Shown: positions 12,858-46,425 of the stretch, piece after piece
How the letters are laid out: each line of letters opens with the position of its first letter
How positions within the stretch are numbered: the stretch's first letter is position 1
From: Halichondria panicea
Taxonomy: Eukaryota; Porifera; Demospongiae; Suberitida; Halichondriidae
Assembly (NCBI RefSeq): GCF_963675165.1
Contig: NC_087377.1
Coordinates: 15,186,198-15,250,197 of the forward strand
Length of the DNA stretch: 64,000 nucleotides
Direction: 5' to 3'
Program-made: the position numbers and the translations under genes
Notes under the pieces: model-generated
Seen by the model: only the letters and a program-made list of their open reading frames with translations
Database searches by the model: none
Told to the model about the DNA's origin: nothing

Positions 12858-15800
12858 TTTTTTTTTTTTTTCATGTAAAGGTTAGAGGGTACAAAGCTAG
12901 ACAAAATAAAATGAAAAATAATGACAAAAATAATTACAATGTGGATGCTGAGTTCAGTTGATTTGCAGTTCTGACATAGCCAGGTCCATAGGGGGCGGTG
13001 TCTTCATGGCTTGACCAATGCTTGAACGGGCACCACGAATGCACTGGATTGCTGATCTTAGTAAAGAAAAATTTAGGCGGCAGCGTAGCCAGGACAGGGT
13101 GGAGGAGTAGGGTTGATCCCATTTCATTGCAAGTAGGGAGGCAAGTCTTTTGTAAAAAACAGTCGCTTCAACTGCAAGACCTCCGGTGGCAGAGAGAACG
13201 AGTGGGGTGAATGAGGCATTCTCAATTTCTCTTATCCTTTGCTCGTAGGCACGTTTTTGTATTAATTCATGTTTGCGGTAGCAGGCTGTAAGGTTGGAGT
13301 GAGAATTGGAGGGGGCAAAAGGGTTGAATACTCTGACATCTAGATATGTTTTTTGGAAGCGTCCTCCCCAGAACCCATTTGCAGCGACGTCCAGTCTTGC
13401 ACCTGGCTGAGAGTTAGATGTAGCACCTCTGAGCGCTTCTCCAGTGATAGGTTGCAGCTCTGGTTCAATACTGACGTTGCTGCACACCTCAGTTAGGAGG
13501 TTAGCAGTCACGTCCCTGATTTCATTATGCCTTAGTGAGGGGAAGCCACCCTTAGGGCAGGAGAGGACGTGTTCAACAGAGAACTTGGCTCCACAACAAC
13601 ACGATAGCGGGGTGCGGATGGGTTGCCAGTTGTACCTAAGACCTAGAGCATCATGGAATGCACCCTTGTGTAGCGCAAAGCTGTATTCTTCTATGGGCAG
13701 CGAGGTGAGCCAAGAAGAGGCCCCTTTCTCTTGGGCAAGGGTCATAGAGCGCTTTTGCGAGTGTGTTAGGGATTCACTCACTGACAGGTGTTCCGATAAC
13801 TGTTTGGAGTGTTCTCTTCTCTGAGTGTGCACCTCCAATTTTGCCTTCAGCTGGTGGTCTATTATCTCTGCTGAGTAGTGAGGGTCTTGCCGTAGAATTG
13901 CCTCGGTCAGGGGCGCGGTTATTTTGGTGGAGGAGAGAAACTCAGAGTCAGTGGAGACGGTGGGGTTGGCCAATGCGATACCACCAAGTCTGGCAGGCAG
14001 AGCCAGGAGGTTACGCTCGATGTCGTTTGGGGGTGGTCTGCCTGTGAGTGCAAGGATCAATTTGGTTCTTATATAACTGCTTCCAGAGGGCTTAGGCAAT
14101 GGCCTAGATTCGGCATTGTACGAGTGAGATATGACCATTTGCTGCTCATTTCGTGGGTAAACGCAGCATGAGCAGCGTGTGGTTGGCTTTGGGCAATGGT
14201 TGACAGGAGCTCGAGTTCGTCAGCCCAGCCCTGAACCTTATTAGCAACAAATGACTGCATATAGTCTTTAGTACCGAGGGCTGCTCCAAGGTAGGGTCTG
14301 CCTTCTGAGGTGACTTTCACTGCTGTGCCTGCGAAAGCTATTGTTGCAGAATCAAGACAATTCACCTTTGAGAGAAGCCAGGTTTTGCTCGGGTTGGGGA
14401 AGTAGCCAAATTTGGGGCCTATGATATTAATTTGATCCCACCAGAGACGTAGACTGTTGATTGTCCCAGACCCTGAAGCATCATCTGCATACCAGACTTG
14501 ATTGATGTCGTTTACATTTTCTTTTAATTTGTTGATCAAGGGAATCGTTGCCAGGGCGTACATGGGCATCGCCAATGGGTCTCCTTGAGTGGTTCCTTCC
14601 TGACTGATGAGAGTGTCCCCATCAACGAACAACTCAGACGGAGCCCTGTAGGTGTTAATGAGGACTGTTGCGAGGGAGGGGCAGAGTCTCCAGATGTTAT
14701 GTAGAGCAGTTTGCCGGTTGAGAGAATTGAAAGCATTGCTGGCGTCTACTATAGTAAGACGGCTTCAGTGTCGTCTTTATTGAAGAGGGTGCGAGCAGCG
14801 TGGACAGCTGCCTCTGTGCCAGAGATTTTACCGGCACAGAGCTGTACTGAGCCAGCGACCTCTTGAATGTCTTGCCTAGTGACTCGCAGGATGGCCTTGG
14901 CAATGATACGCCTAGCAGTATCTCCGATTCCAATGGGACGAACACCCGGATTTTTGTCGAAGGCGATGAGACGACAAGCCAATAGAGGGGCTGTGCTGGC
15001 TGGGTCGATCAGTTCAGTGCAGATGCGTTTTGCCGTCTGAGCGAGTGAGTGGCAGAGGTCCGCAGAAGCAGACTTAAAGGAGGTGCATAGACGTCTCCAG
15101 CCTAGTGCATCTATGCCAGATGGACCAGCAGCGCCACTGGTATTCAAGGCGGCAGATCTAATTATAGTGGCATCTAGTGATTCGAAAAATACAGGATGAA
15201 CATCTTGGGGGTCATCCTTAATGATTACATCGGGGTAAGCTGGTTGGCCTGGAGGGTGTTTATCAATGAAGATCTCCTTCACCTTTTTCTGACCATTTGG
15301 AGTTGTGACAATTTCATCCAGCTGGAGAGTTCCTCCTTTACCCTGCTCAGATAGTAGACGAAGAGCTGCTTTTGTTTTGCCTTGGAGCATCAGGTTAGCA
15401 AAGGAACGAGGGAGTTGCTCTTTCTTGAGTGGTGGTGTGATGCGGATACGGTGTTGTATTGTTCTTCCTTCTCTCAGTAGTTCATTTAGGTCTCCCTCTC
15501 GCCAGGTGTCCAAGCGCCTAGTGAGGCAAGAGGTATGATCTTTTTGTTTTGATTTACGAAAAGGCTTCTGTAGAAGGAGGATGGGCATGAGTGTAGCTGC
15601 TTTTAAAGCAATTGTCTCTAGGGCTGAATTTGAAGCAAAGGCATTAAAGAGCCTCGCGAGCTCGGAGACAAAGGACTTTCCAGCATTTCCATGGGGGACT
15701 TTGAAAAGGTTCGTCCTCCAATGTACTGCTTCAGTGAATGCAGCATTGAGAGAGTTGATAAAGGTCAGACAGTCATATTCCCCCCAAGTAAACACGGGGT

Positions 15801-16104
15801 CTGCAGGGGGGATAAATTGAGGGAGTACCGTTTCCGCAAGATTGCATCCCCGGGCCTGGGCAGGGGAGTGTGAAGGAGATCCTGGGAGGCTTAGTGGGAG
15901 GTTGGCTGATTGAGACGGAGTAATGTTTGGCACAATGAGAGGTTGCACAGGCATGTCATTCGGAGCTGTCGGTAAGGGCACGACATGAGCGGGATTAGCA
16001 CAGTTTCCCAGTCGCTGTGGAAGACAGTTTTGACATGGTTGGCCTCTCTTGACACACACACAGTTCAGACAGCGTCCCGTATGGTTGCATTTACAGCACG
16101 TCAT
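12858..16104 (-). mobile_element. LINE (non-LTR retrotransposon) with restriction-like endonuclease
   Basis: Read on minus, it starts near 16104, runs through a zinc-finger, reverse transcriptase and C-terminal endonuclease region, then about 80 bp of 3' UTR and a 14-base poly(A) (T run at 12858-12871). There is no LTR. A 40-bp sequence just 5' of it is present twice (16118-16159 and 16170-16210) and may be a 5'-UTR repeat or flank duplication. The layout fits early-branching LINEs (R2/NeSL/HERO-like). I cannot fix the clade by eye. Confidence 0.8.
12954..16104 (-). pseudogene. LINE polyprotein: zinc finger, reverse transcriptase, PD-(D/E)XK-type endonuclease; two frameshifts
   Basis: Three overlapping frames carry one protein of roughly 1,050 residues. 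16104-14749 opens with a cysteine-rich finger (CCKC, CLNC, CQNC) and the start of the reverse transcriptase. 14750-14069 continues with the motif A region VDASNAFNSLNR, EGTTQGDP and the catalytic YADDA. 14138-12954 carries a CCCG...H....C finger (CCCGAKFSVEHVLSCPKGG region) and RLDVAANGFW with DVRVFNP, which resembles the restriction-like endonuclease of early LINEs. Frame breaks lie near 14755 and near 14100-14140, so this copy is dead. It would have nicked target DNA and copied its RNA there. Confidence 0.8.
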
Positions 16105-16117
16105 TCGAGTGTTTGAC

Positions 16118-16210
16118 TTCGAAAAGCTCCTTGGTGAGTAGGCTTGATTAGTCAGTTTAATAGATCAGTTCGAAAAGCTCCTTGGTGAGTAGGCTTGATT
16201 AGTCAGTTTG
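16118..16210. repeat. Two tandem copies of a 40-bp sequence
   Basis: The stretch beginning TTCGAAAAGCTCCTTGG occurs twice with a period of about 51 bp, directly upstream of the LINE start. It may be part of the LINE 5' UTR. Confidence 0.7.
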
Positions 16211-17960: not shown

Positions 17961-17991
17961 ATAACTGTTTCAATAGTGCCAACATTTTAGC

Positions 17992-19053
17992 ATGACAAAG
18001 TGTTCACAGAAGACACAGCTGGTGGCTATTGGTAGTGTACTGTCAACTGTACTCTGGACTTTGTTTCTGGTACAGAAGATGTGTAGCGACAACACGGCGT
18101 TCCTCCCTAGGCCTATATCTGCAAATCCAGTTACAGAGAAGGAAAATCTGCCAAACTGTACAAGCTGTATGCAACTGAGGGAGGAAGATCCCTACCCGAC
18201 TAGTGGAGAATCCCTCAGTGGAAAGAATTTTTGTGAAGCATTCACAGGAACAAACCGTACAGACTGTGTTTATCTTCATCCAGAGATATTTCACTATGTC
18301 CTATTTACAAACAATCCGAAAGACAGCGTATTGGGTTTTCGAGAGTTTTTGTCAATATATTCAGTGGATAAGTTTTATAAGCCAGAGAAGATTGTCATAC
18401 ACTGTAGCCAATCGATCACTGGCAAGTATTGGGAGATTGTGCAGAAGTTGACTACTCCTATTGAGATGAGACTGACGTATCGAATAACTACTGTTGGCAA
18501 GAAACAGAAACCAGCATTTATTTCCCATGAAGCAGACTATCTAAAAATCAAATCTGGCTTCAGAGACGGGGGCATTTATTCTGATTTTGATGTTGTCATC
18601 CTCAATGGTTCAAAATTGCGTGAAATGCAACGACAATCAGAGATAGTGATTGGGAGAAACAACCCAGAGTGTACCGAAACTTGTGCCGGATTTTTTTCAA
18701 GTGTCCCCGGCTCACCATTTATGGGGAAATGGTTGGACAGTTACGAGAATAACTACAGGCCTGGATGGACATACAATGCAGGACATGTGCCAGCTCAAAT
18801 ACTACACCATTGCCCAGAATGTCATCGTGACATAACTGTTGATTATGACATGAGTAATTGGATTGACGCTAGGGATAAAAACTGGTTGAAGGAAGGAGGG
18901 CTTGAGTGGAGGCAAAAAGCAGTGGCTCACTATATGAACACGGGGTTTATGAAACCATTAAAACCACCTAAAGAATTACTTAGTATGTCGACTCCATTCT
19001 CAGAGATGGTGAAGTTTGTACTAGGGGACGCAATCAACGATTTTATTATCTAA
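17992..19053 (+). CDS. GT32-like glycosyltransferase, copy 1 (353 aa)
   Basis: Intronless, with its ATG preceded by a leader (TATATAACTGTTTCAATAGT) shared by all three copies. Residues about 10-27 form a single hydrophobic signal anchor, so this should be a type II membrane protein of the Golgi with its catalytic part in the lumen. The catalytic core has HEADYLKIKSGFRDGG followed by IYSDFDV, with the metal- and sugar-nucleotide-binding DXD at residues 198-200; this is the pattern of the GT32 / DXD sugar-binding family. Cysteines in the stem (CTSC) and after the core (CPEC) may form disulfides. It probably transfers a hexose to a glycan or lipid; the acceptor cannot be told. It is the most divergent of the three copies. 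Confidence 0.85.
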   Translation: MTKCSQKTQLVAIGSVLSTVLWTLFLVQKMCSDNTAFLPRPISANPVTEKENLPNCTSCMQLREEDPYPTSGESLSGKNFCEAFTGTNRTDCVYLHPEIFHYVLFTNNPKDSVLGFREFLSIYSVDKFYKPEKIVIHCSQSITGKYWEIVQKLTTPIEMRLTYRITTVGKKQKPAFISHEADYLKIKSGFRDGGIYSDFDVVILNGSKLREMQRQSEIVIGRNNPECTETCAGFFSSVPGSPFMGKWLDSYENNYRPGWTYNAGHVPAQILHHCPECHRDITVDYDMSNWIDARDKNWLKEGGLEWRQKAVAHYMNTGFMKPLKPPKELLSMSTPFSEMVKFVLGDAINDFII

Positions 19054-20864: not shown

Positions 20865-21347
20865 TATAGTCTCATGGATCAGCTCCCTCCTGAGAAGGGG
20901 TCTGAGCACTCTTGTCTTGAGGTCATTTCACAGTGGAATGTGCCATACCAATGGAATGTAATCAATTCCTGACCTTACGCCTCTGCGTATTTGTTAATTG
21001 TACAAAGCGTCAAGCGCAGGTATCTCTCTATTTCTGAAAAAGGTGCTTCAATCTATTACATGTATGTCTTTTGCCTGTGGTGCTAACTCTCTGTGCCCAA
21101 GGACCCCTGCTTGGCTTGCTTATGCTTCGTAGCAGCGTCTATGTATGATGCGTTTACCATGCGTAATGCATGCGTTAATGATTATCCAAATGCGTTGAGC
21201 AACGTGCAGTTTTTTATATTGCCTCCTATAATATCACCTGACTAGAATAAGTCAATCTGATTGAGCCGCTGGAATTCCAGCGTGTGCAACAAAACTACAT
21301 CAAGAGTGCTCAGACCCCTTCTCAGGAGGAGGCTGATCCATGAGACT
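20865..21347. mobile_element. Non-autonomous TAG-ended element, imperfect 9-bp duplication
   Basis: The inverted ends read TAGTCTCATGGATCAGC and its complement, with GAGAAGGGGTCTGAGCACTC just inside. Flanks AGCGGTTGC (20856-20864) and AGCCGTTGC (21348-21356) differ at one base. The left end has two additional bases (TA) before TAG. No coding sequence. Confidence 0.7.
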
Positions 21348-21945
21348 AAGCCGTTGCATGGCAACATTATATAACACATTTACGAATACAGAATTTAGCA
21401 CACATGTGTATAGTGTGCTATATTAAGGGACAATCGAATAACACACTACCACGTGCTGAAACAACACGTTTGTTTTTACAGTGTAGGAGTGACAATAACA
21501 CACTTCATTAGCTTCATTCTAGGTACTTGCATTAGAGTGTATGTTTCCTGAGGCCTAGCTAATGGTACAAGCTCCAATGTGTTTGGCTAGATAGCAATAA
21601 AGATAAAACTGCTTGAAAATGTTTGTATCCAGTTGGTTCAAAGTTGGGAAACACATGCACACTTTGATATCGTGATTATGTCATGGTCCAGAGTAGCAAT
21701 TCTGTAGCTCATTAAATAGCTCAATAAATTTATACATAAATTATATACACCTGTGCAAGGTATGCGAGCCATGCCATTATGTAGGTAGGAGTGACTTTGT
21801 TGCAAATCACTAACACATCCAATAAGGGTATAAGATTTCTTGAGCCCATGCATCAAAGTAAACAAAGACCAAGAAGCCAACCGTAAAAGCTATTACTATA
21901 AAAGCTATTGGTATATAACTGTTTCAATAGTGCCAACATTTTAGC

Positions 21946-22995
21946 ATGAGAAAGTATTCACAGTCTACACAGCTGGTGGCTATTGGCAGTGTACTGTTCA
22001 CTGTACTCTGGACTTTGTTTCTGGTGCAGAAGTTGTATAGCGACAACACGGCGTTGCCTGCGCCTATATCTGCAAATCCAGTTACAGAGAAGGAAAATCT
22101 GCCAAACTGTATGCAACTGAGGGAGGAAAATCCCTACCCGACTAGTGGAGAACCTCTCAGTGGAAAGAATTTTTGTGAAGCATTCACAGGAACAAACCGT
22201 ACAGACTGTGTTTATCTTCATCCAGAGATATTTCACTATGTCCTATTTACAAACAATCCGAAAGACAGCATATTGGGTTTTCGAGAGTTTTTGTCAATAT
22301 ATTCAGTGGATAAGTTTTATAAGCCAGAGAAGATTGTCATACACTGTAGCCAATCGATCACTGGCAAGTATTGGGAGATTGTGCAGAAGTTGACTACTCC
22401 TATTGAGATGAGACTGACGGATCGAATAACCACTGTTGGCAAGAAACAGAAACCAGCATTTATTTCCCATGAAGCAGACTATCTAAAAATCAAATCTGGC
22501 TTTAGAGACGGCGGCATTTATTCTGATTTTGATGTTGTCATCCTCAATGGTTCAAAATTGCGTGAAATGCAACGACAATCAGAGATAGTGATTGGCAGAG
22601 ACAACCAAGAGTGTAGCAGAACTTGTGCCGGATTTTTTTCAAGTGTTCCCGGCTCACCATTTATGGGGAAATGGTTGGACAGTTACGAGAATAACTACAG
22701 TCCTGGATGGATATACAATGCAGGACATGTGCCAGCTCGAATGCTACACCATTGCCCAGAATGTCATCGTGACATAACTGTTGATTATCACATAAGTAAT
22801 TGGAATGACGCTAGGGATAAAAACTGGTTGAAGGAAGGAGGGCTTGAGTGGAGGCAAAAAGCAGTGGCTCACTATATGAACACGGGGTTTATGAAACCAT
22901 TAAAACCACCTAAAGAATTACTTAGTATGTCGACTCCATTCTCAGAGATGGTGAAGTTTGTACTAGGCGACACAATCAACGATTTTATCATATAA
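21946..22995 (+). CDS. GT32-like glycosyltransferase, copy 2 (349 aa)
   Basis: Intronless and nearly identical to copy 3 (28175-29224), with which it shares both flanks. An N-terminal signal anchor spans residues about 10-27. The core carries HEADYLKIKSGF, GGIYSDFD (DXD near residues 194-196) and a CPEC motif. It lacks four codons in the stem present in copy 1. The same ATG and leader are used as in the other copies. Predicted to be a Golgi type II sugar transferase with unknown acceptor. Confidence 0.85.
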   Translation: MRKYSQSTQLVAIGSVLFTVLWTLFLVQKLYSDNTALPAPISANPVTEKENLPNCMQLREENPYPTSGEPLSGKNFCEAFTGTNRTDCVYLHPEIFHYVLFTNNPKDSILGFREFLSIYSVDKFYKPEKIVIHCSQSITGKYWEIVQKLTTPIEMRLTDRITTVGKKQKPAFISHEADYLKIKSGFRDGGIYSDFDVVILNGSKLREMQRQSEIVIGRDNQECSRTCAGFFSSVPGSPFMGKWLDSYENNYSPGWIYNAGHVPARMLHHCPECHRDITVDYHISNWNDARDKNWLKEGGLEWRQKAVAHYMNTGFMKPLKPPKELLSMSTPFSEMVKFVLGDTINDFII

Positions 22996-23367
22996 CTTAT
23001 AACAGGTATATTATTTATTCTAGCCAGCAATTGAACTGTGTGCATTCAACATAAACATTTTTTACGACAATACTTGACAATACTTTTAGTATACTAGTCT
23101 CGCACCAGCCCCAGTTTTTCGACTTAACGTTCCAATAGAAAACATTCGGGGCTGGTATGACTAAATAGCTAATACCTGGCAACTGAATAGATTGATTTTT
23201 GTTAATCACGTATAGTCAATTATGTAATAGAATTGCTGTTTTATAGACAATGATTTATGAAAAGAGTGCATGCACTGATATACAAATTAGTTTGTGCTCT
23301 TTGTTTCAATTAATACATACGTTATTTAAGCCAGATGTTTAAGCCAACCAAATTTTACGCTCGTCTA

Positions 23368-26273: not shown

Positions 26274-26626
26274 TAGTCGGGCGCCGCCGCCCTCTACCGT
26301 TGCCCGGAAGGAGGTCGGGAATCAAGCCTATCCACAGTTTTGCTCTGTTGTTGGAAATCCAACAATTCCACCAGCTCCAATCAGATTGCAGTATCTCAAG
26401 GGGATTGATCACACCCACTCAACTGTACCACGTGTGAATTTTGCACACGTTGGATTGACTGAGAGGCGAGGCCAACACCCACTTTAATAAACGATATTCA
26501 TCGCTATTGGTTAGCACCCACATAGAATGAATGATATTCATGATACTATTGCGTAACAGGCCAGAACAAAACTGTGGATAGGCTTGATTCCCGACCTCCT
26601 TCAAGGAGGGCGGCGGCGCTCAACTA
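26274..26626. mobile_element. Non-autonomous TAG-ended element with exact 9-bp duplication
   Basis: Begins TAGTCGGGCGCCGCCGCC and ends GGCGGCGCTCAACTA, flanked on both sides by ACATTTACT (26265-26273 and 26627-26635). Its inner terminal sequence (GAGGTCGGGAATCAAGCCTA) strongly resembles the termini of the helicase element at 3798-9217, so it is a likely dependent of that family. Confidence 0.9.
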
Positions 26627-26788: not shown

Positions 26789-27219
26789 CAGAGGAGGCTG
26801 GAACCACTTGACCTTAGCTAATTAAGGTCAATAATTGGATTTATCCAAACTTCTCTTGCAGACTACTTCAAACCTAGTTTTTAGTGTCTATCAGTTTAAA
26901 ACGTTATTTTTCAGGGGGGGTCAAATTTTATTTTCGCCAACTTTGCTCAGAAGCAGAGATACAATCAAAAGTCTTGCTCTTGTACTAGCCTCGATGTCAT
27001 GAGCGGCTTGTTTTCGAGGTCACTGTGTAGCTGGCTTTGAGACTTGTATCTCTGCTTCTGAGCAAAATTGGCGAAAATAAAATTTGACCCCCCCTGAAAA
27101 ATAACGTTTTAAACTGATAGACACTAAAAACTAGGCTTGAAGTAGTCTGCAAGAAAAGTTTGGATAAATCCGATTAGTGACCTTAATTAGCTAAGGTCAA
27201 GTGGTTCCAGCCTCCTCTG
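26789..27219. mobile_element. Foldback element with exact 9-bp target duplication, copy 2
   Basis: Same CAGAGGAGGCTGG ends as 11343-11556 but with about 200-bp arms meeting at 26.98-27.02 kb. It is flanked by AATACATTG at 26780-26788 and 27220-27228. No coding sequence. Confidence 0.9.
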
Positions 27220-27357: not shown

Positions 27358-28078
27358 TAGACTGGAAACCACGCCTCTTTCTTTAGGGAAAGAGACTGGC
27401 CAGGTGACTATCAACAACTCGTCTTCATTGCGTACTGAATTTTGCGGAAGTGGTTCAAGGAAAAGGGTGTGGTCACCAGTGTTGCGGTTTAGTATACTTT
27501 GGCTAGATCTACTGTACTCGAACTCTAGCAAGCTAGCTAGCTAGCTCAGCCATCTATCAAACTTAATTTCAATCACAAGTCAACTGCTGCAAAACTATGT
27601 CCAAGTCTGGAGCTAGCTGTCACCTGGATGTACCTAGTTCTTGTCCTGTCTGTGGCAATGATACCGCTGTAATAGAAACTCAAATGTTGCTGGCAATAGG
27701 GCAAAGCAAAGGGACTTTCCATAAACCAGTTGGCAGAGAGACAAATATATCTCTGCATCTCTGCTACTTCTGTCTGTTATTTTTGCAGTGGCCTTGTAGC
27801 CAGCCAGGTTATAGCAACTTTAGAATTGCTTCATTGGAGAAGTACTGATAGACAACTTATATCCAAACAGCTAGCTAAGTAGACATAAAATTGATACTGC
27901 AACTGTACAGCTATACTCACATAAAATCAATTATAATAAAATTTATGCAATATTGTGGTTTAGATATCTCCCACGCATTCATGCACACACTACATTCCAA
28001 GCATTCCTTTGGGACGAGTCGTTGATAGTTACCTGGCCAGTCTCTTTCCCTAAAGAAAGGGGCGTGGTTTCCAGTCTA
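27358..28078. mobile_element. Non-autonomous TAG-ended element, 9-bp duplication, empty site known
   Basis: Begins TAGACTGGAAACCACGCC and ends in the complement, with inverted repeats of about 55 bp. Both flanks read GCATCAAAG (27349-27357 and 28079-28087). The paralogous unit near 21.85 kb has the same surroundings with a single GCATCAAAG and no element. An 83-codon frame inside (27597-27848) has CPVCG and CYFC but no recognised family. Confidence 0.92.
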
Positions 28079-28174
28079 GCATCAAAGTAAACAAAGACCA
28101 AGAAGCCAACCGTAAAAGCTATTACTATAAAAGCTATTGGTATATAACTGTTTCAATAGTGCCAACATTTTAGC

Positions 28175-29224
28175 ATGAGAAAGTATTCACAGTCTACACA
28201 GCTGGTGGCTATTGGCAGTGTACTGTTCACTGTACTCTGGACTTTGTTTCTGGTGCAGAAGTTGTATAGCGACAACACGGCGTTGCCTGCGCCTATATCT
28301 GCAAATCCAGTTACAGAGAAGGAAAATCTTCCAAACTGTATGCAACTGAGGGAGGAAAATCCCTACCCGACTAGTGGAGAACCTCTCAGTGGAAAGAATT
28401 TTTGTGAAGCATTCACAGGAACAAACCGTACAGACTGTGTTTATCTTCATCCAGAGATATTTCACTATGTCCTATTTACAAACAATCCGAAAGACAGCAT
28501 ATTGGGTTTTCGAGAGTTTTTGTCAATATATTCAGTGGATAAGTTTTATAAGCCAGAGAAGATTGTCATACACTGTAGCCAATCGATCACTGGCAAGTAT
28601 TGGGAGATTGTGCAGAAGTTGACTACTCCTATTGAGATGAGACTGACGGATCGAATAACCACTGTTGGCAAGAAACAGAAACCAGCATTTATTTCCCATG
28701 AAGCAGACTATCTAAAAATCAAATCTGGCTTCAGAGACGGGGGCATTTATTCTGATTTTGATGTTGTCATCCTCAATGGTTCAAAATTGCGTGAAATGCA
28801 ACGACAATCAGAGATAGTGATTGGCAGAGACAACCAAGAGTGTAGCAGAACTTGTGCCGGATTTTTTTCAAGTGTTCCCGGCTCACCATTTATGGGGAAA
28901 TGGTTGGACAGTTACGAGAATAACTACAGTCCTGGATGGATATACAATGCAGGAGATGTGCCAGCTCGAATGCTACACCATTGCCCAGAATGTCATCGTG
29001 ACATAACTGTTGATTATCGTATAAGTAATTGGAATGACGCTAGGGATAAAAACTGGTTGAAGGAAGGAGGGCTTGAGTGGAGGCAAAAAGCAGTGGCTCA
29101 CTATATGAACACGGGGTTTATGAAACCATTAAAACCACCTAAAGAATTACTTAGTATGTCGACTCCATTCTCAGAGATGGTGAAGTTTGTACTAGGCGAC
29201 ACAATCAACGATTTTATCATATAA
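28175..29224 (+). CDS. GT32-like glycosyltransferase, copy 3 (349 aa)
   Basis: Intronless and almost the same as copy 2; I see only a few amino-acid differences, such as NAGD for NAGH and DYRISN for DYHISN. Signal anchor at residues about 10-27, DXD within GGIYSDFDV, CPEC near residue 260. The upstream 95 bp, including the shared leader, also matches copy 2. The TAG-ended element at 27358-28078 ends about 100 bp before the start codon and a BEL/Pao element begins 300 bp after the stop, so regulation could differ from copy 2. Confidence 0.85.
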   Translation: MRKYSQSTQLVAIGSVLFTVLWTLFLVQKLYSDNTALPAPISANPVTEKENLPNCMQLREENPYPTSGEPLSGKNFCEAFTGTNRTDCVYLHPEIFHYVLFTNNPKDSILGFREFLSIYSVDKFYKPEKIVIHCSQSITGKYWEIVQKLTTPIEMRLTDRITTVGKKQKPAFISHEADYLKIKSGFRDGGIYSDFDVVILNGSKLREMQRQSEIVIGRDNQECSRTCAGFFSSVPGSPFMGKWLDSYENNYSPGWIYNAGDVPARMLHHCPECHRDITVDYRISNWNDARDKNWLKEGGLEWRQKAVAHYMNTGFMKPLKPPKELLSMSTPFSEMVKFVLGDTINDFII

Positions 29225-29526
29225 CTTATAACAGGTATATTATTTATTCTAGCCAGCAATTGAACTGTGTGCATTCAACATAAACATTTTTTACGACAAT
29301 ACTTGACAATACTTTTAGTATACTAGTCTCGCACCAGCCCCAGTTTTTCGACTTAACGTTCCAATAGAAAACATTCGGGGCTGGTATGACTAAATAATAC
29401 CTGGCAACTGAATAGATTGATTTTTGTTAATCATGTATATAGTCAATTATGTCATCTTTTTGTAATAGAATTGCTGTTTTATATAGACAATGATTTATGA
29501 AAAGAGTGCATGCATAATACAAATTA

Positions 29527-29867
29527 TGTTGATGTGTACAAGCTAGGTGTTTAATTACTTAATGTTATGCAATATTTACTAGGTTCATAGTTTAATGAGT
29601 TTGTGGTAAATGTGTTGTTTTGTTCAATTTTCTTTGTTGTGCGCAGGGCCCCTTGCTCTGGCCCTGCCCCCTTGTTTTTGTATTTGCCATCACCCACTAT
29701 CTTCCTCAGTTGTTGTTATTTGTCTAAACTCACTAAGAATTGTTGCAAAGGGTCAAGTCAACTTGTACTCTAGGATAAGTAGGAGCCTGTCTCCCAACAA
29801 TAGCTAACTCTCAAACTAAACTAGCCTGTCTAGTTCTTAGTTTATAGATACAAGAAAGAGCTCAACA
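29527..29867 (+). repeat. 5' LTR of the BEL/Pao element
   Basis: Direct repeat of 41375-41716 with TG...CA ends. Confidence 0.92.
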
Positions 29868-30076
29868 TTAAATGGTCCTTCGAACTAGATGGGCGTGCCC
29901 GTCCCCGGCCATAAAAATGGGGGGACGGGTTTCAGCCCTATCTAGCATTCGTTCTGCTGCAGAAAATCATGCAGCACCAATCAGATTGCAGAGTGATCGC
30001 GTAATGCATATTGTGGCTTCCCAGCTAAACCTGGCTTCTCAGCTGACATATCAAGTTGAATTGAATAAAGTAAACT

Positions 30077-31760
30077 ATGAGTATTTTGACTGAAAGCATC
30101 TGCTCAGCTGCCAGAGAGTTGGGCTATCCAAGTGTGAAACCTGAACAGATGGATGTTGTGCGTGCTTTTATGGGAAAGAAAGACGTATTTGCTGTACTTC
30201 CAACAGGATTTGGGAAAAGTCTGTGCTATGCTTGTTTGCCATTCACCTTTGATAAAATCCTTCAAAAGGAGAAAGGATATTCACTGGTGATAGTAGTGAC
30301 TCCTCTGCTAGCTATTATGAAAGATCAGGTAGGCTGGTTTAGGGTTTATCATGATTAAAAAGGCATGCCATGCATGTATTAAACTATACTCTCACAAGTG
30401 AAGATAACACGTGACCCTTTTCACTCTTGCAATTGCATGTTCGTGTTCACAGAAACATTCAAGTATGCCTGAAGCCCTGAACATGATAACATTCACATCA
30501 CTGCATGTGTCGTACATAATTATAGCGAATAATTATAACTCACACAGACTGACAAGCAAAATTAGTAACTATGTTGATTCCAATGCAGGTGGCATTTTTT
30601 TCTTCCAAGGGATTGTCCTCGGCACTAGTTTCAGGAGAAAATGTGGACATTGAAGTACAAGATGGTGTGTGCAGAGGTGCGTATCAGTTAATTTTCTTTA
30701 CGCCAGAGATGATCATTGGAAACCGAAAGTGGAGAAAATTGCTGGAAGGCGATGTTTATGCTAATCGTTTGAAGGCCTTTGTGATTGATGAGGCACATTG
30801 TGTGAAGAAATGGTAAGCCACATAACAAATGCACTTGTATATATTATACTCGTAATTATAATCTTAAGTAGGTAAATAATGATATAATTATTGTTTTATA
30901 GGGGTGAGACTTTTAGGCCTGTCATGGATAGAATTGGTGAAGTGAGAAGCCTATTACCAATAGGTGTGAATGTAATGGCTGTTACAGCGACAGCCACAAA
31001 AACCATTCGTTACTCTGTCAGCAAGACAATCGGGCTAAAGTCACCCTATGTAATCACAAGATCTCCTTCTAAAAAGAATCTCTTTTACTGTGTTGGAGTG
31101 TTTAATGGAGTTGAAGAAACGTTTCGTCCATTAGCTCGGAAGTTGAAAAATGTGCGTGTTGCCTTCCCAAAAACAATCATTTACGGTCAGTCGTTCAGTA
31201 TGTGTGCAGATATATACATTTTTCTTCGGAGAGAGTTAGGCACCAATTTCACAGAGCCTGTTTATGCTCCTGATGTACCCTCTTTCCGCATGGTAGACAT
31301 GTTTACTAGCGTTACAGGTGCTGGCCACAAAACAGAAATTATACAGTTATTTAAGAAAAAAAGCAGCCTGAGAATTGTTATTGCCACAATTGCCTTTGGT
31401 ATGGGGGTAGATTGCGCTGATGTGAGGCAAATAGTTCATGTTGGCCTGCCGGATGACAATAGTTCTTACATTCAAGAAACTGGTCGGGCTGGCAGAGATG
31501 GACATCTGTCATCAGTCACACTACTTCAAGCAACCACTCACCACCCTGTTGATACGGACATTAAAGAATATGCCTCAAACTGTGATAAATGCCGACGCGA
31601 TTTCCTATTCACAGATATGGATAATTACGTTCACAACGATATGGGTAGTAAGTGTGTTTGTTGTGACATTTGTGCCAAGCTATGCTTTTGTGGTAACTGT
31701 GAAACCAATATGATACATTTTACTAAGCTTACTAGATCTACTACTATTTATTTTGATTAA
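30077..31760 (+). CDS. RecQ-like superfamily II DNA helicase of a transposon
   Basis: Three exons (30077-30328, 30589-30812, 30902-31760) give an intact 444-residue protein. The second exon has exactly the same length (224 bp) as in the paralogue at 3999-5489. Motifs: KPEQ, Walker A TGFGKSLCY, FVIDEAHCVKKW, VTATAT, GMGVDCADVRQIVHVG and QETGRAGRDG, then a C-terminal cysteine cluster (CVCCDIC, CFCGNC). ATP-driven DNA unwinding is expected from the motifs; a role in transposition is inferred from its place between the terminal repeats. Confidence 0.9.
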
Positions 31761-31847
31761 TTGCGCGTGCAATCGTACTTTTTTTATAATGCTTGATGAT
31801 TGGGAAAAGTCGTATTACGCTTTCTTTGAACTGTAAAAAAAATCAAA

Positions 31848-34800
31848 CTAAAATTTATCAGGCAATTTGGTTAAAATCCAGGTCATTAGTTCATCTTTAG
31901 TTTTGGAATGTAGCACATTCCTAACACGTGGGAACGTTAGGTGCTTTCGGTTATCTTCTACTATAAACCCACGAGACTTCACAAGTTCCTCGGCTACAAC
32001 TTCGATATCTGTTTGTGTATTAGGTTTTGCTTGTCTACTACTTGAATGTGTAATACTGTTATCTTCATCGAACTGATCAAGCAGTGGTGATATTGTGCCG
32101 ATTGCCCTCCCAGTTCTTTGAATTGCCTTAGCTGTTCTATTAACACCTTGAGCTCGTATGCATGTCTTGGCAATTTTATTTAGATGTTCCATGTGTAAAT
32201 CACCCGCAATATTCATCCCTGGTTTACCATTCATGTTTACGAACCGACTCCATATTAGCTGTGCTGAAAGCCTTGGTGACAATGTGTACAGGTGTTGAAG
32301 AAGTAAATTCACCGACTCACAACAATAATTCTTAGATCCAGAACCGTAAAATACTGGCATAAGATATTTCCAGCAACGCAGGACGCGTTCACCATCTCCT
32401 TCTCTGATAGCGTCGGAAAACTCTAGGTAGAAACACCCAAGTCGTAGAAGCTCTGTAGAGTAGCTGAAAATGCCATCTCGTTTAGAACTCGCTTTTAAGT
32501 CACAATTCAAACCATTGTAACTGAAGCATACACATTTATCATATATAAGCTCACACAACTGCATTAAGCATTTCTTTCTCTCCTCATGTGACTTAAACCA
32601 CACATCTTTAGCATTCGGTAGTATGTCATCAGTAGGAGTGTCATCTTTTGACTTCAATCTCAATACAGCATAAGAAGATGCAACAATGTGGCCGGCAGTG
32701 ACAATTTCAATGAAATCCTCACAGGCATTCACGTCATTCTTTGGTGATTTCACCACATGTATTCTATTCAACTTGTTCCGTATTTGGTACATAGTTCCAT
32801 GTTCAGAAGCTGACCTTTCCGAGTAGAAGTACTTCCAAATTATCTATACAGATAGTATTAATTTTCGTTTAAAATAGGTGTTATGTTACACAATTAATGA
32901 TGATTTAAATTCAACATGTATGCGTGTATATGACACAAGTTACCTTGAGGAAAGCAACTTTAGTATGCCAGTCTTCTGCCATGGGAACCAGACCCACAAA
33001 TCTAGCTGAGGGTGAGGGTGAATTAACTTTGGCCTTCTGCGCCCCTCGAGCTCTTGCTGCAGTCAGTTGGTCTCTCCACTGAAGAGTATAGGGCGACCCA
33101 ACGCATTTGATACTTTGACTGTCTTGTCAATACATGGCATATACCGATCACAGCTGATCTCTTTAATGGGTACATACTGATGGAAATGCTCCATTATAGC
33201 TACCATGTCTTCCCCCTTGTTTTCATTCTTGGCCAAAATCCCTAGAGGAACCTGTTGTAAGCACATGCAGTATTAATCAAACTGAATAGATATGGGCTAA
33301 CATTATATTTACTTACCACATCAGATTTTTTTGACATTTGGTCATAAAAATCATGTTTTATATGGCGATCGACGACTCCATCGAAAGAAGCTTTGAAGAA
33401 CGTAACATTATCACAAAGCACACGAGACATAAGTGTGCATATGTTTCTGCGTATTGCCAAGTCGTCCTCAACAGATGGCAATAAAGACGCAGCAATTCTA
33501 TCAGGACAGATTTGTGAAGTCGGGATGACTTGTTCACTGAGATTCGAGAAGTCGATTCTGTCAGAGACAGCATACGCATGAAACCAGTGAAGAGAATCCG
33601 GTTTTTTCACACCCACTCGCATGTACCTTTGCTTGACTCCCTTGTCAATATTGTCACCACAAATACGGAATATTGTAGCACCACCTGCATAACGTTTATA
33701 ACTTGCTTGACGTTAGCACAATAATAATTATAAGTAATTATGTACGTTACAAGCAAAATTACATATTATATGCACACCTCTGCTTCCACATTCACTATGT
33801 ATGCTTGAATCACTACTTTCTTCTTCTGTTGATCGGGAGCAGGTACCTAAATGACCACTGTCATTAAGGTCTTCATCACCAGTATCGTCTGCACTATCAT
33901 GATCTTCAGAAGGTTGATCCTCTTCATCAGATGTCATTGGGGAAAATTGTTTCCACGAGTCATCACTGTCAGTCGAACAGTCATCAGAGTCTGCTGCACC
34001 ATCTTCTGTCGATTTTGACCAAGGAGCTTGTTGTGTAGTCTATAAATGCAAGTGAAGTAGCATAATTATTTAATACTGCATGCACAGAATTATGTCTATA
34101 CAAACATTTTTTTCGCTTACTAATTCATCCTCGTCAGTGATAGTGGCAAGAAGAGAGTCTCTCCACTCCTTCACCCTGGCATCATAACCCAGCCCTACCT
34201 TTGCCAACACTCGAATCATCGATACGTGAGACACAGTTAGGTTGAGGGGGTTCAAGCGTTGATACACCTATATACCGATACCAGATCTATAATTATTATA
34301 CATTATATAGTTTTAACGAAACTCACCTGTTTTGAACTATGACCAGCGTACAAGATCAGTGAATTAATTTTCTGAACGATATTCATCCTAGGGTTTCTAT
34401 GTTTGAGAATGATTGCTGCGCACATACCGATCACTGCCTTGGTATTAGAACGAGGTGCTCGAGTTTTGGTAGCAGAAACTAGAACACTGGACATCAAGGG
34501 AGCAAACTGTGTGAGCTCAGTAAGCAGAGAATTCCAGGAGAAACATTTCAGGTCATTGGCGTTTGTGCTCTGAAGGATTGAGTTAACCTTGTCGGATGCC
34601 ATACACTTCACTTCTTTGAAGATTTCTTGTCCGACAAGCTTCAATATGTATTTCTTGACAGACTTATCTTTCATGGCCTCGACAGCAATGGATTTTTTAC
34701 TTCTACGAGCTATCGCTTTTGTTAAGTGCTTTCGATTAGGAGTGAGGGGATAGCTCTTCTTTGCGTTCTTGTAAGAGACATGAACCTAAATTTGAGGATT

Positions 34801-35285
34801 ATACAATTATAATACACACCATGCAACATTTCAATACATAATGATTATTAACTTACAACAACGTCTGGAGACTCACTGCTCGCAGTCTGAGATGTTTTAC
34901 TGCTATGGCCAGCATAATTGCTAAAAGACCTGCCTAGACGAGGTTTCTTTGCTAAAGGTGGGGCTAATGTTGTTGATGAAGGAAAAACACCCGGCATTGC
35001 ATCAATTGCCTTCTTCATATTATTTTGTATGGTGTCGTGTAGCTTTGAATATCTTTCGTAGGTGGATTGGCATTTCCTACATAATTTACCAGCTCTTTCT
35101 TGGATACCATCACCACTCAGTATGCAGTCAAGGTCAACATCAGGCTCATTTTCATCCACAACAAAGGCTTTCCAAACTTGAGCCACATGAGCATTATTTT
35201 CACTAGTGAGAGATCTTCTCTCTGTGGGAGTACTAGTCAGATCAGTTCCACAACCAAAGCAGTATATGGAGATGGGGTGAGCCAT
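31848..35285 (-). pseudogene. DUF6589-type putative transposase, seven exons, one frameshift
   Basis: Exons on minus: 35285-34857, 34785-34327, 34267-34121, 34039-33778, 33684-33317, 33251-32944, 32843-31848, with consistent splice phases. Exon 1 opens with a CFGCG...CRKC zinc module. Exon 4 is a Ser/Asp/Glu-rich linker. Exon 5 has GDNIDKGVKQRYMR and FHAYAVSDRIDF. Exon 7 has HGTMYQIRNKLNR, EGDGERVLRCWKYL and LHMEHLNKIA. Exon 6 is 308 bp where the copy 2 exon is 309 bp; the frame is lost near 33090, before a conserved AARARGAQKAKVN stretch. Apart from this the gene reads open. The start is the ATG before AHPISIYCFGC; an upstream TTG in frame is unlikely. Confidence 0.8.
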
Positions 35286-35499
35286 TATTAACGTAGAACA
35301 GCACAATAATTAGTGGAGACAGAATCAGAACTGAAGCCATGTGGACTCTAATTAACACCTGAGCTCTGTGGTCAGGAGCGCGCCAATATTAACAATATTC
35401 ATAGTTAGTACGCGGTCAGCAGAATGAATGCTAGATAGGGCTGAAACCCGTCCCCCCATTTTTATGGCCGGGGACGGGCACGCCCATCTACCTTCGAAC

Positions 35500-35804
35500 C
35501 GGATATACGACTCCGAACTCATTGGCATCCACGGCTCTCTCTTGTAGCCCTCTCTCACTCATACAGTCCACACTCGATCGTACGTCTGCACAAGAGTGCA
35601 CGAACTCTGTACAAAGGTGCACGACCCATCGTATTGCACGACCTGCACAACGGTGCACAACTCGACGGCTGCACAAGAGTGCATGTAAGTCTGCACAAAG
35701 GTGCAAAAATTGTTGCCCTGCACAAAGGTGCAAAATTGTTGCCCTGCACAAAGGTGCACGAACGAAACCAAAACATTTAGTATACTTCATTCTTATCTCT
35801 TATA
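35500..35804 (+). repeat. BEL/Pao leader with iterated TGCAC motifs
   Basis: The leader contains about eight irregularly spaced copies of TGCACAA(A/G)(G/A)GTGCA between 35587 and 35760, the last three within a unit of about 27 bp. Each copy is a partial palindrome. No coding function is claimed. Confidence 0.7.
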
Positions 35805-38800
35805 ATGTCTGAGCTCACTACTCTCAAAAGAAGGAGAGGCTCAGTAAAGGCCAGCATCACAAGGTTGACTTCCAAGCTAACAGAGCTCGAAGGCATGGAC
35901 TTTGATCAATCTGTCTCAAGCCAAGCGCAACAGTTACTTAAGAGATTGGAATCACTTGATACTAGCTTCAAGACGCATAACATGGCAATTCTTGACGCTA
36001 TAGAAGAAAGCCAAGTCGAAGCTGAACAAGAGACACTTGATAAACATGACGATGATGTCATGAATATCTCACTCAGACTACAAGCCCTAACTACTCTTAA
36101 CACTGACACTGACACTGTCGAGGCTAGACCTCTCCCTGATCGTACTCTCATTGGTCGCCGTCTGGCGCAGTTGCAAGCGAGACTCTTGTCAGTCACAGAA
36201 GAAGCAAATACACTCTCTGGAGATCCTGCAGAAGTTCACTTAGCCCACACCTACCAAGAAATACTTGCAGACCTCAAGGCAGAACTCGCAGACATCAGGA
36301 AGGAAGCAGTAGTCATTGCCGCCGATTCATCTGATGATCTCAGCACGGCTGTTTGTAATCAAGACAAGGACATTTTCAATCTATCAGTAAAGATCAAAAA
36401 AATCCTTTACAATCCTGGATACACTTTGGAATCGCTCACCACCACGACACCTGAACCGCATGGAGTTAGACTCCCAAGAATTGACATTGCTTCGTTCGAC
36501 GGCGACCTGCTCAATTGGCAAACTTTCTGGGAGCAGTTTAACATTTCTGTCCACAGTCGCAAAAATGTTGCTAATGCGGAAAAGTTGGCTTATCTCCGAC
36601 ACTCTCTGAAGGACGGCCAAGCCAAATCAGTGATTGAAGGACTCTCTCAATCTGGTGATCAATACGCGGAGGCTATTGAATCTCTCAAGGCACGATACGA
36701 CAGGCCACGCTTAATTCACCAAGCTCATGCTCGGAAAATCTACGAAGCTCCAAACCTAAAGGATGGCAGTGTCAAAGAGATCAGACGCCTGCATGACTCT
36801 GTACAACAGCACTTGCGTGCTCTCAAGGCAATGGGTGAAGAACCTTCTGGAGCATTTATAACTTCTATACTGGAACTGAAACTGGACCAAGCCACGATGT
36901 TTGAATGGCAAAGGGCCAGTCAGGACTCTACCAGTGTTCCACACTATCAAAAACTACTTGAGTTTCTCGATCTTAGAGCACAAGCCTCAGAGACGTGTTC
37001 GCTTACTCAAGAAAGGCGTAGCGGACGATTTGAGCACAAGAAACCCTACACCAATCCTCACAAGATTTCAGCTCACACTGGAAACGTTTTTGAATCAGCC
37101 GGAAACTGCGTCACTTGTAAAGTCGAGAAGCACCCACTGTATGCCTGCCCGAAGTTCAAGAGCTTACCCCACGACAAGATGTTGTCAACTGTTCGCTCTA
37201 ACAATCTATGCCTAAACTGTTTTAGGCCCGGACACATGGCCAGGAATTGCCCAAGTCTCCATCGTTGTAAACAATGCCAAAAACCCCATCATACCTTATT
37301 ACACATTGAAACCAAGGTATCTGGTCAAACTCCTTCTGAAACTCCAGAAACTCCAGAAAACGAACACTCATGCACTGCCAGCATCGTTTCGACCAATGCG
37401 CAGACAGGTACAAGTTCAAGGACTCTCATGATGACCTGTCAAGTACTAATTCATGCCCCCGATGGCTCTCAAATCAAGGCTCGTGGTCTACTCGATTCAG
37501 GTTCAACAACCTCGTTTGTATCTCAACGATTGGTACAGTCACTTGGGCTACCAAAGTCGTCAAAGAATCTTCAAATCACTGGAATAGCTGGAATCTCTCA
37601 CAACTCACCGTTGCATTCAATTTCCACATTCCACGTCTCGCCAACGTTTTCACCCGATGAAAGAATACCAGTCACTGCGGTTGTTGTCCCGAGGGTCACT
37701 TGTGATATGCCTGCACAGCCTGTGGGTTTCAATTCAAAATGGAATCATTTATCTGGCCTAGAGCTCTCTGACTCGGAATTTGGATGTCCTGGAAGGATTG
37801 ACATTTTGTTTGGCGTCGATGTCTGTGCATATTCACTATTGCAAGGCCGGCGGCAGGGACCAGCTGACTCGCCAGTAGCATTCGAGACCATCTTCGGCTG
37901 GGTGCTTGCTGGCAAAACGGACAAGCTACAAGTCCTCCACAGTCAAGTATCAACCCATCACGTCACTGTCACTTCTGGAGATGACATTTTGAGACAATTC
38001 TGGGAAATCGAAGAGAGCCCCAAGGCTGCATCCAATCTATCCCCTCAGGAGCGTACAGTCATACGTCATTTTGATGAGACTCACACTTTAAATAAAGATG
38101 GTAGATTTGTTGTGCCTCTCCCCAAGAACCTTGACTCCAAACCCCTTGGAGAATCCAGAATGCAAGCTGTGCGAAGATTCCTCTCTCTTGAACGATCCCT
38201 CCGTGCCAAGAACCAATTCAAAGAGTTTGCCACAGTCATGGAGGAATACATGAAATTAGGACACGCTGAAGTGGTACCAGACACAGACAGTCGAAAATCA
38301 AGCAATTGTGTGTTCTATCTACCAATGCATGCTGTGCACAAAGAACATAGCACCACTACAAAGATTAGGGCCGTTTTTGATGCATCCGCCAAATCTAGTA
38401 CTGGAGTCTCCCTAAATGATACATTGTTAGTTGGACCAACTGTACATCCACCGTTGATTGATGTATTACTACAATTTCGCTTCCATAGAATTGCTCTCAC
38501 GGCCGATGTGAGCAAAATGTACAGAGCGGTCGAGCTAACACAATCTGATCGTGACCTCCACCGATTTGTATGGCGAAGCACACCCACCGACAATTTGACA
38601 GACTACAGAATGACAAGAGTCACGTTTGGTGTGTCTGCTTCATCCTTTGCTGCCAACATGTCCGTTAAGCAGAACGCTCTCAACCATGCTACAGAATACC
38701 CCCAGGCCGCAAGAATTGTTGAAACGTCTTTCTATGTAGACGACTGCCTCTCGGGAGCTGACTCTGCTGAGGAAGCAATTATTCTTCAGCGGCAACTACA

Positions 38801-41319
38801 CAATCTGTTTACCAAGGGAGGATATCTTCTCAGAAAGTGGGACTCGAATGATGCAACGGTATTGGACAGTATATCTTCTGAGCTCAGGGATAGTCAATCA
38901 TCACACTTGCTTCCCACTGACGACGAGTACAAGAAGACCCTTGGTATCGAGTGGAATGCAAGTAAAGATCACTTTCGACTAACTGTGGCCGATCAACCTC
39001 CAATTGAGACTCTAACCAAACAGGGTATAGCCTCTGATGTTGCTAAGACATATGACGTGCTCGGGTGGTTTTCTCCTGCTACCATCAAGATGAAGATCTT
39101 ACTCCAGAAGTTGTGGGAAGAAGGACTCGAATGGGATGATCCAGTTCCTTCAAGTATCAAGGATGTATGGTGCAAGTGGAGATCTGAACTACCTGAACTT
39201 TCCCACAAGTATATCCCTCGCTGCTACTTTGACGTAGCCTCTCACATCTCATCGATCCAACTTCACGGGTTCTCCGATGCCTCAGAATCCGCATATTCTG
39301 CTGTTGTGTACCTGCGTCTAACGAACACATCAAATTCCAATCAAATCTCACTAGTCATGTCTAAAACCAAAGTGGCACCAATCAAGCGTCTGTCGATTCC
39401 ACGGCTTGAATTGTGTGGTGCACACTTACTCTCTCAATTGCTGAGTCATGTGAAGAAGGTATTTGACATTCCCCTTTCCAGCATACATGCCTGGACAGAT
39501 AGCACGGTGGTACTAAATTGGCTGGATGGAAGCCCAAAGCGTTTCAAAACATACGTGGGAAACCGAATCTCTGCAATTCTTGACCTGATTCCGCCAGACA
39601 AGTGGAGACATGTGAGTGGACTAGAGAATCCAGTCGACTGTGCCTCTAGAGGTCTCTATCCCACTGAGTTACTAGACTACGAGCTCTGGTGGAATGGTCC
39701 TGACTGGTTGAAGAAATCTTCCACCGAATGGCCTAAGAAAAATATGATCAAGCCCAATACCCCAGCTGACGAAGAAAAGGAGATTTCATTGCTGGTAGTG
39801 GCAGAGTCTGACCACTTGCCAGTAATCCCTTTGGAACGATTCTCGAATTTTAACCACTTCAAACGTGTCACTTGCTGGATCAATCGTCTTGTGTACAATT
39901 CCAAAAGGAAAAGGAAAGACAGGATCCTGTCTAGCTGTTTGACCACCCTTGAACTCCAGCAAGCGGAGAATTACTGGTACAAATTCGTTCAATTGATTCA
40001 CTTCAAATCCGAGATTGAAAACCTGAGCAGCAACCATCCACTGCACAACTCAAGCTCACTCATCTCTCGAAACCCATTCCTTGATGATAACAAGTTGCTT
40101 CGAGTCGGAGGCAGACAGCAACTATCTCAATCGTCTTATGAATCCAAGCACCCTCTGATTCTGCATGGAAGTCACAAGCTGACACGTGTGATCATATTCA
40201 CAGAGCATATTCGATTGTTGCACGCTGGTCCAACACTGCTTGCCAGCTCTCTGAACAGACGGTATCATATAATTGGTGGATACAAGGTCATTCGCTCTGT
40301 CACAAGGAAATGTGTCACTTGTCGAAAGTATTCAGCCAAGCCCCTACCACAGATGTTGGGACAGCTGCCACCGGAAAGAATCACTCCTGGATCTGTTTTC
40401 GACAAAGTAGGCATCGACTATGCCGGTCCAGTGCTGATCAAGTATGGTTATGTCCGGAAACCAACTATCGTAAAGGCATACATTTGTGTTTTTGTATCGC
40501 TATCGGTAAAGGCAGTTCACTTGGAATTGGTGACCGATCTGACAACGGACGCGTTCATCGCTTGCCTAAGAAGGTTCATCGCTAGACGTGGTCTACCTAC
40601 ACTCATTTGGAGCGACAATGGCACCAACTTTGTTGGCGCATCTAGGCAGCTATCAGATGTATACAAATTCCTTGAAACGCAAGCGAATCACCAAACCATC
40701 AGTGGTCATCTTGCTAGTCAAAATATAGAATGGCGGTATGAAACGTGCTCCACACTTTGGAGGTTTATGGGAAGCTGCAGTAAAGAGTGTCAAGACCCAC
40801 CTGCGCAAGATCTTAGGCGAAGTCAAGATGACGTATGAGGAAATGTCCACAGTCCTGTGCCAGATTGAATCTACCCTCAATAGTCGACCGCTGACACCCC
40901 TGCACAACGATGATGATGGCATTGAGGCTCTCACCCCGGGACACTTCCTCATCAATAGACCACTCAAGGCACTACCTGATGTCTCATCTATAGCTCCTCG
41001 TCCACTCTCACTCTTGAAGCGATGGCAATGTTGTCAATCATTGGTACAGCATTTTTGGAAGAGATTCTCGACAGAATACCTTTCTCATATAGGAAAGTTC
41101 TACAAATGGCAACACCCAACAAGAAACATTCGCATTGGTGACCTTGTGGTCATTAAAGAAGATGCTCCCATACGCAATCGATGGCCATTGGCTAAAGTAT
41201 TGAACGTTCATCCAGGCAAGGATGGTTTAGTGCGAGTGGCTCAGATCAAGACGGCCGATGGAACCTACACTCGTCCCATTACCAAGCTCGCGGTAATACT
41301 ACCGATTGACGAACAATAA
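35805..41319 (+). pseudogene. BEL/Pao gag-pol region
   Basis: Domain order along the region: a coiled-coil-like N-terminus, a gag-type block (FDGDLLNWQTFWEQF), a CCHC knuckle (CLNCFRPGHMARNC), an aspartic protease (LLDSGSTTSFVS), reverse transcriptase (YVDDCLSGAD), an RNase H-type region, integrase with its zinc-binding HxxH/CxxC part and a DYAGP core, and a C-terminal domain (HFLINRPLKALPD). This order is typical of BEL/Pao. The region looks nearly whole, with about one break, and is treated as a fossil. Confidence 0.88.
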
Positions 41320-41374
41320 GTAATTGTTGAACAATGGCAATGTACCTAAGACCATCCGGTCTTGGCCGGCGGTA

Positions 41375-41716
41375 TGTTGATGTGTACAAGCTAGGTGTTT
41401 AATTACTTAATGTTATGCAATATTTACTAGGTTCATAGTTTAATGAGTTTGTGGTAAATGTGTTGTTTTGTTCAATTTTCTTTGTTGTGCGCAGGGCCCC
41501 TTGCTCTGGCCCTGCCCCCTTGTTTTTGTATTTGCCATCACCCACTATCTTCCTCAGTTGTTGTTGTTATTTGTCTAAACTCACTAAGAATTGTTGCAAA
41601 GGGTCAAGTCAACTTGTACTCTAGGATAAGTAGGAGCCTGTCTCCCAACAATAGCTAACTCTCAAACTAAACTAGCCTGTCTAGTTCTTAGTCTAGATAC
41701 AAGAAAGAGCTCAACA
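41375..41716 (+). repeat. 3' LTR of the BEL/Pao element
   Basis: Direct repeat of 29527-29867, followed by the AATTA target duplication. Confidence 0.92.
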
Positions 41717-45748: not shown

Positions 45749-46425
45749 CAGGGTGTCATACGAGGGGGGGGAAGGGGGATACCCCCCCAGCTCCAATTCC
45801 CCCCCCCTTTTTTTGCATTCAGGTACTAGTTGTATGACTGAGTGTCCATAGCTGGCAATTTGTTATAGTTGTGACACATGCACGAGTGCCACATGGGATA
45901 TATTGGCTCAGTAGTGACTTAGGCCCGAGGGCCGCAGGCCTCGAGGGCAAAGGCACTACTGAGCCAATATGTCCAATGTGCGCACGAGTGAGCTGTGTAA
46001 CAACTGATTTGTTGCATTCCTTGTGCATTCCTTTCCGTGTTCACATCACTCGTTTTATAGGACAACTAGTTTCAACTACTTGTGGTGGCTGTGGAATGCA
46101 CCCAGACGCATGAAAAACGTTTTTTGCCTAGTACCACTGAATCTGTTGACAGTGTTATACTATAAAAGGGACCGTTTCAGGTTACTGGGTGGAGGGTGGG
46201 CTTTAGGTAACTTCAGCCATACTATGCCAGTATCTAGATAGTGGCACAGTTCGAGGCTTGACCTGTGCCATATGGCAGATATTGGCACAGTGTTTCCTTT
46301 GATCTGCCCACTCAAAATGCAACAATACATACTATAACAGGGTATTGAAATAACAGATGACCTTTTTTTTAGCAAAATGTTCTCTTATTTCCCCCTTCTA
46401 CTTCAAAATCCTGTATGACACCCTG
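45749..46425. mobile_element. hAT-like MITE, CAGGGTGTCATAC ends, copy 1
   Basis: The inverted ends CAGGGTGTCATAC and GTATGACACCCTG enclose 677 bp. It holds a palindromic block (GGCTCAGTAGTG ... CACTACTGAGCC, about 45900-45970). Terminal parts match copy 2 at 46845-47048. Confidence 0.7.

Follow-up and report, generated by a model that had tools for sequence, protein, structure and literature searches.

Within the 64-kb window, the whole stretch of DNA that was analysed, positions 29886 to 35490 are occupied by a two-gene element, hereafter copy A, in which a RecQ-like helicase gene and a putative transposase gene with a DUF6589 domain lie on opposite strands. Its features are as follows.

29877 to 29885: left TSD, CCTTCGAAC
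29886 to 35490: copy A, 5605 bp, delimited by its TIRs, the exact 9-bp TSD and the joined flanks
29886 to 29959, plus strand: left TIR, 74 bp
29978 to 29990, plus strand: left subterminal motif CAATCAGATTGCA, also at 3884 in copy B and 26378 in M26274 (see below)
30077 to 31760, plus strand: RecQ-like helicase gene, three inferred exons (about 30077 to 30328, 30589 to 30812 and 30902 to 31760)
31848 to 35286, minus strand: putative transposase gene, about seven inferred exons, with a CxxC...CxxC N-terminus, an acidic stretch and DUF6589
35417 to 35490, minus strand: right TIR, 74 bp
35491 to 35499: right TSD, CCTTCGAAC

Genes and insertion site of copy A

The three inferred helicase exons have GT-AG junctions in copy A and in a second long copy, copy B. 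Against Pfam, the spliced helicase of copy B matched DEAD (5.4e-22) and Helicase_C (3.7e-13), and the last helicase exon of copy A matched Helicase_C (1.5e-11). ResIII also matched the helicase (1.2e-8); in the pieces of copies A and B that were scanned, all other Pfam matches outside DEAD, Helicase_C and DUF6589 fell below the curated cut-offs, and no nuclease domain was among them. The last helicase exon of copy B matched 81 distinct PDB sequences at 1e-3. The top match, 1oyw (6.9e-20), is annotated as an ATP-dependent DNA helicase and is presumably RecQ of E. coli, and the other chains among the best 60 of the 81 included 4tmu (a RecQ), WRN, RECQ4, BLM and RECQ5. These Pfam and PDB matches confirm the RecQ-like helicase that an earlier note had proposed here. 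They also agree, together with the CxxC...CxxC motif, with its plan of a helicase and a zinc-finger/DUF6589-type protein encoded on opposite strands.

The putative transposase runs from the CxxC...CxxC N-terminus, present in all three copies of the element found in the window, through a middle region and the acidic stretch to DUF6589. The DUF6589 profile of Pfam matched spliced exons 5 to 7 of copy B at 6e-59 and the last exons alone at 1.2e-35 (copy A) and 8.3e-40 (copy B). The gene is broken in both, by a frameshift in the sixth exon of copy A and by in-frame stops in copy B. Pfam classes DUF6589 as a family of unknown function, and our searches of an open-access library turned up no biological paper that uses DUF6589 or PF20231. 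A PDB search with the last exon of the copy B gene gave no match at E values up to 1, and AlphaFold models of single exons, built from two-row alignments, reached mean pLDDT values of only 36.0 and 40.5, too low to be usable. No relative of the DUF6589 last exon of copy A was confirmed in collections of genome contigs, viral contigs and phages, nor any relative of two-row alignments of the DUF6589 last exon, exon 5 and the helicase last exon; because these collections hold viruses and prokaryotes, the searches say little about eukaryotes.

To compare copies A and B, we used six exon comparisons, two from the helicase and four from the putative transposase. Amino-acid identity was 60-70% in five of the six and 41% in transposase exon 1. 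In all six, pN was lower than pS (0.19-0.36 versus 0.66-0.84), and dN/dS was 0.11, 0.15 and 0.19 in three comparisons; the remaining three have saturated synonymous sites. It thus appears that both genes were maintained.

The TIRs of copy A are 99% complementary, and the exact duplication reported earlier at both sides of the element was found again, at 9 bp. The left flank of copy A (29525-29867) is 98.3% identical to 41373-41716, a second repeat lying 5.9 kb downstream of the right end of copy A. Since Peptidase_A17, DUF1759 and DUF5641 ORFs lie between them, the two repeats are LTRs belonging to a BEL/Pao element. Joined through a single 9-mer, the flanks of copy A read ...CAACATTAAATGGTCCTTCGAACCGGATATACG, in which a TGG-initial stretch directly 3' of the LTR sits at the expected position of the primer-binding site of a BEL/Pao retrotransposon. 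We take this stretch to resemble the 3' end of tRNA-Tyr; a tRNA scan of the 64-kb window found none. Copy A splits the apparent BEL/Pao primer-binding site, and joining the flanks restores it. Copy A therefore inserted there, and CCTTCGAAC is very likely a true duplication.

Related copies and shared termini

Two further copies, a relic and four short elements bear on the group to which copy A belongs.

1 to 931: copy C, its start cut by the window edge, with the helicase end and transposase exon 1
3798 to 9217: copy B, with the same two genes as copy A, no TSD seen
11301 to 12774: relic of a related element with ill-defined outer limits, recognised by blastn and TIR comparison
11609 to 12695: M11609, TAG...CTA ends, exact 9-bp TSD CCCTATCTA, nested in the relic
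20865 to 21348: M20865, TATAG...CTA ends, duplication identical at 8 of 9 bp, core of the motif (11 bp) near the right end
26274 to 26626: M26274, non-autonomous derivative, 353 bp, exact 9-bp TSD ACATTTACT, TIR related to that of copy A, left motif shared with it
27358 to 28078: M27358, TAG...CTA ends, exact 9-bp TSD GCATCAAAG

The earlier note had let copies B and C share the plan of copy A. This holds for copy B, whose flanks are identical at only one of nine positions, and in part for copy C, in which tblastn found no more than transposase exon 1 and the end of the helicase, the latter with an in-frame stop. The TIRs of copies A, B and C all start with TAG(A/T)TGGGCG, and those of M26274 with TAGTCGGGCG and TAGTTGAGCG; near 11301 the first bases of the relic are altered. 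An inner TIR block around CCTATCT is common to copy A, copy B, M26274 and the relic, and reads CTTATAT in copy C. Two elements, M11609 and one with CAG ends, break up the relic. The stretch of the relic at 12696-12774 shows 85% similarity to the inner part of the right end of copy A, and joining the flanks of M11609 restores a sequence that resembles the inner TIR of copy A. An element with other ends, at 11343-11556, has 8 of 9 bp duplicated.

The motif CAATCAGATTGCA occurs three times in the 64 kb: 86 bp inside the left end of copy B, 92 bp inside that of copy A and 104 bp inside that of M26274. Its 11-bp core has five exact occurrences, adding to these three a copy at 12828, next to the relic, and another in M20865, 85 bp inside the right end, at a depth matching that in A, B and M26274. 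In 100 base-shuffled windows the core occurred 0.04 times on average and at most once. Its count and matching depth mark it as a candidate protein-binding site.

The four short elements had been lumped with copy A for their TAG ends and 9-bp duplications. By its TIR and motif, M26274 reads as a clear derivative of the copy A group. M20865 probably belongs to the group as well, because it carries the core at matching depth, although its TIR has no blastn match to the group. The grouping found no support for M11609 and M27358: neither has blastn similarity to the copy A group, the core is absent from both at up to two mismatches, and they have only TAG ends and duplication length in common with copy A.

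TAG ends with exact 9-bp duplications are present at 11609, 26274 and 27358, as claimed; the single mismatch given for 20865 is obtained (8 of 9) if the element starts with TATAG, whereas counting from the TAG at 20867 only one of nine positions is identical. For M27358, a paralogous locus at 21836-21858 and beyond lacks the element and carries a single GCATCAAAG, and so represents an empty site. The 14 bases preceding the 9-mer are the same at the two loci, and from the 9-mer onwards the loci are 99.75% identical across 400 bases; to the left of those 14 bases they differ.

We then collected all pairs of TAG...CTA ends with 16-bp TIRs (up to three mismatches) that lie 60-9000 bp apart (n = 60). 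Exact flank duplications of lengths 2 to 12 numbered 11, 1, 1, 0, 0, 0, 0, 4, 0, 0 and 0. The four at 9 bp are 11609-12695, 26274-26626, 27358-28078 and 29886-35490, and the remaining 56 pairs are identical at no more than seven of the nine flank positions. When the right flanks were shuffled among the 60 pairs, which are not independent because some nest or share ends, none of 10,000 trials reached four (mean 0.105, maximum 2). Given this and the peak at length 9, chance was rejected as the source of the 9-bp duplications. With any termini allowed, the exact duplications of lengths 5 to 12 numbered 8, 9, 5, 3, 6, 0, 0 and 0, a less sharp peak in counts that include some inner parts of the same elements. 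The six cases at length 9 are the four TAG...CTA elements, a CAG...CTG element at 26789-27219 and 45889-45981. Since elements with other termini have 9-bp duplications too, a length of 9 bp is not sufficient to define the group.

Classification and comparison with known elements

Kojima is said to have described AcademH in 2020 (Mob DNA 11:15) as a lineage of Academ in animals and fungi. In all likelihood, copies A, B and C, M26274 and probably M20865 belong to this lineage of DNA transposons, an assignment that rests on TSD length and the helicase, AcademH being known here by its description in citing papers. In PMC10045372 (2023), AcademH is stated to make TSDs of 9 or 10 bp and AcademX of 3 or 4 bp, and this difference is tied to the helicase of AcademH versus the nuclease of AcademX. 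The Academ duplications of 3-4 bp given in the earlier note thus apply to AcademX and not to AcademH, and its suggestion that an Academ branch makes more widely staggered cuts agrees with AcademH as described there. The lineage and its 9-10 bp duplication are already in print and not new. Here, a single window suffices to read the longer duplication of helicase-bearing Academ elements, and it also supplies an empty site for the autonomous copy.

The note's other option was a distinct superfamily; it would be an undescribed one whose DUF6589 transposase came to be paired with a RecQ helicase independently of Academ. The standing of DUF6589 in Pfam and the lack of biological papers using the name or PF20231 in the open-access library searched speak for it. 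However, a new superfamily is not needed, because PMC10045372 already describes the combination of a helicase with TSDs of 9 or 10 bp for AcademH. We regard this option as very improbable.

Even less probable is a Mutator-like element that captured the helicase and the DUF6589 gene. TSDs of 9 bp are typical of MULEs, and M11609 and M27358 could be MULEs. Against this reading, no MULE transposase domain was among the Pfam matches in the pieces of copies A and B scanned, and both genes are present in two long copies and look constrained in both; this evidence applies to copies A and B and not to the unlinked short elements. A KolobokH-like element would be suggested by the pairing of transposase and RecQ helicase in Kolobok lineages, among them one rhodophyte family whose RecQ is encoded on the complementary strand. 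It is ruled out for practical purposes by the 4-bp TTAA TSD of Kolobok, unrelated to the 9-bp CCTTCGAAC, and KolobokH has been reported from fungi only.

Within the AcademH assignment, we infer that the DUF6589 protein is homologous to Academ transposases, and DUF6589 is probably the core of the AcademH transposase. It is conceivable, though rather doubtful, that DUF6589 supplies the catalytic DDE core and, at the same time, that the opposite-strand RecQ helicase sets the 9-bp stagger. Candidate catalytic residues lie in a conserved GDNxDKG block in the fifth exon, an RDQ/GDQ block in the sixth and a DLHMEHLNK block in the last. In the mechanism that we propose under the AcademH assignment, the DUF6589 protein would be the DDE-type transposase, which binds the ends at subterminal sites through its N-terminal zinc domain, excises the element and joins it to target strands with a 9-bp stagger, and gap filling by host repair would yield the 9-bp duplication. 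The helicase would assist, perhaps by opening the duplex at the target or at the donor junction, and this assistance may explain a stagger exceeding the 3-4 bp known from nuclease-bearing AcademX. For M26274, mobilisation would be in trans. The DUF6589 assignment is the only part with some novelty: if it holds, a Pfam family so far without a known function would gain a role, and helicase control of cut spacing would become testable.

The Academ/Kolobok comparison further draws on PMC10799480, PMC12730594, PMC12210899, PMC10294476, PMC9587614 and PMC8290104. As described there, KolobokH resembles copy A in pairing a transposase with a RecQ helicase, and differs in its 4-bp TTAA TSD and its fungal range. 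The length of copy A is similar to the mean of 5565 bp given for a set of 100 curated consensuses from bivalves that covers the Academ superfamily as a whole, which lends weak support to Academ. AcademX belongs to the same superfamily by name, but has a nuclease and a TSD of 3 or 4 bp, whereas copy A has a helicase and 9 bp. AcademH encodes a helicase, as do copies A and B (DEAD and Helicase_C; RecQ-family PDB chains), and its TSD of 9 or 10 bp compares with exactly 9 bp in copy A and M26274 and none in copy B. In the two features compared, helicase and TSD length, copy A does not differ from AcademH.

Nine-base-pair duplications at other termini

Two palindrome-like elements with CAG...CTG ends are flanked by duplications of the same length as those of the TAG-ended elements (copy A, the two-gene transposon assigned to AcademH, and short elements such as M11609):
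26789-27219, 9-bp duplication AATACATTG, exact
11343-11556, 9-bp duplication GGTAGCAGC/GGTTGCAGC, 8/9 matching
The 9-bp duplication is therefore not exclusive to the TAG-ended elements. Separately, a short inverted-repeat pair with other termini (45889-45981) is flanked by an exact 9-bp duplication, GCACGAGTG.

A 25-bp TAG...CTA palindrome at 11567-11591, built from terminal inverted repeat sequence of the type found in M11609 (11609-12695), carries a 10-bp direct repeat, GGTTGCAGCC, on both sides. It looks like an extreme internal deletion.

A BEL/Pao retroelement, reverse-transcriptase-like ORFs and repeated ORFs

Copy A splits the apparent primer-binding site of one retroelement:
29525-41716, BEL/Pao retrotransposon, long terminal repeats 98.3% identical
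Reverse-transcriptase-like ORFs were also seen on the minus strand at 12954-16164, where the RVT_1 match (E 0.00043) falls below the Pfam cut-off.

Three ORFs of approximately 355 codons (17977-19053, 21931-22995, and 28160-29224) are similar to one another. A Pfam search of ORF 21931-22995 at 1e-3 gave no match; by eye it resembles a glycosyltransferase. The block at 21850-23292 shares 97.9% identity with that at 28079-29530.

DDE_Tnp_1_7 transposase copies

A transposase is present twice:
58824-60494 and 63078-63998, DDE_Tnp_1_7 match, 8.8e-69 (Pfam)
The second copy is 99.8% identical to the first (58651-59746 versus 62907-64000), and the two are separated by a repeat array (approximately 60465-62601) whose units are each some 160 bp long. 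The transposase is of the piggyBac type.
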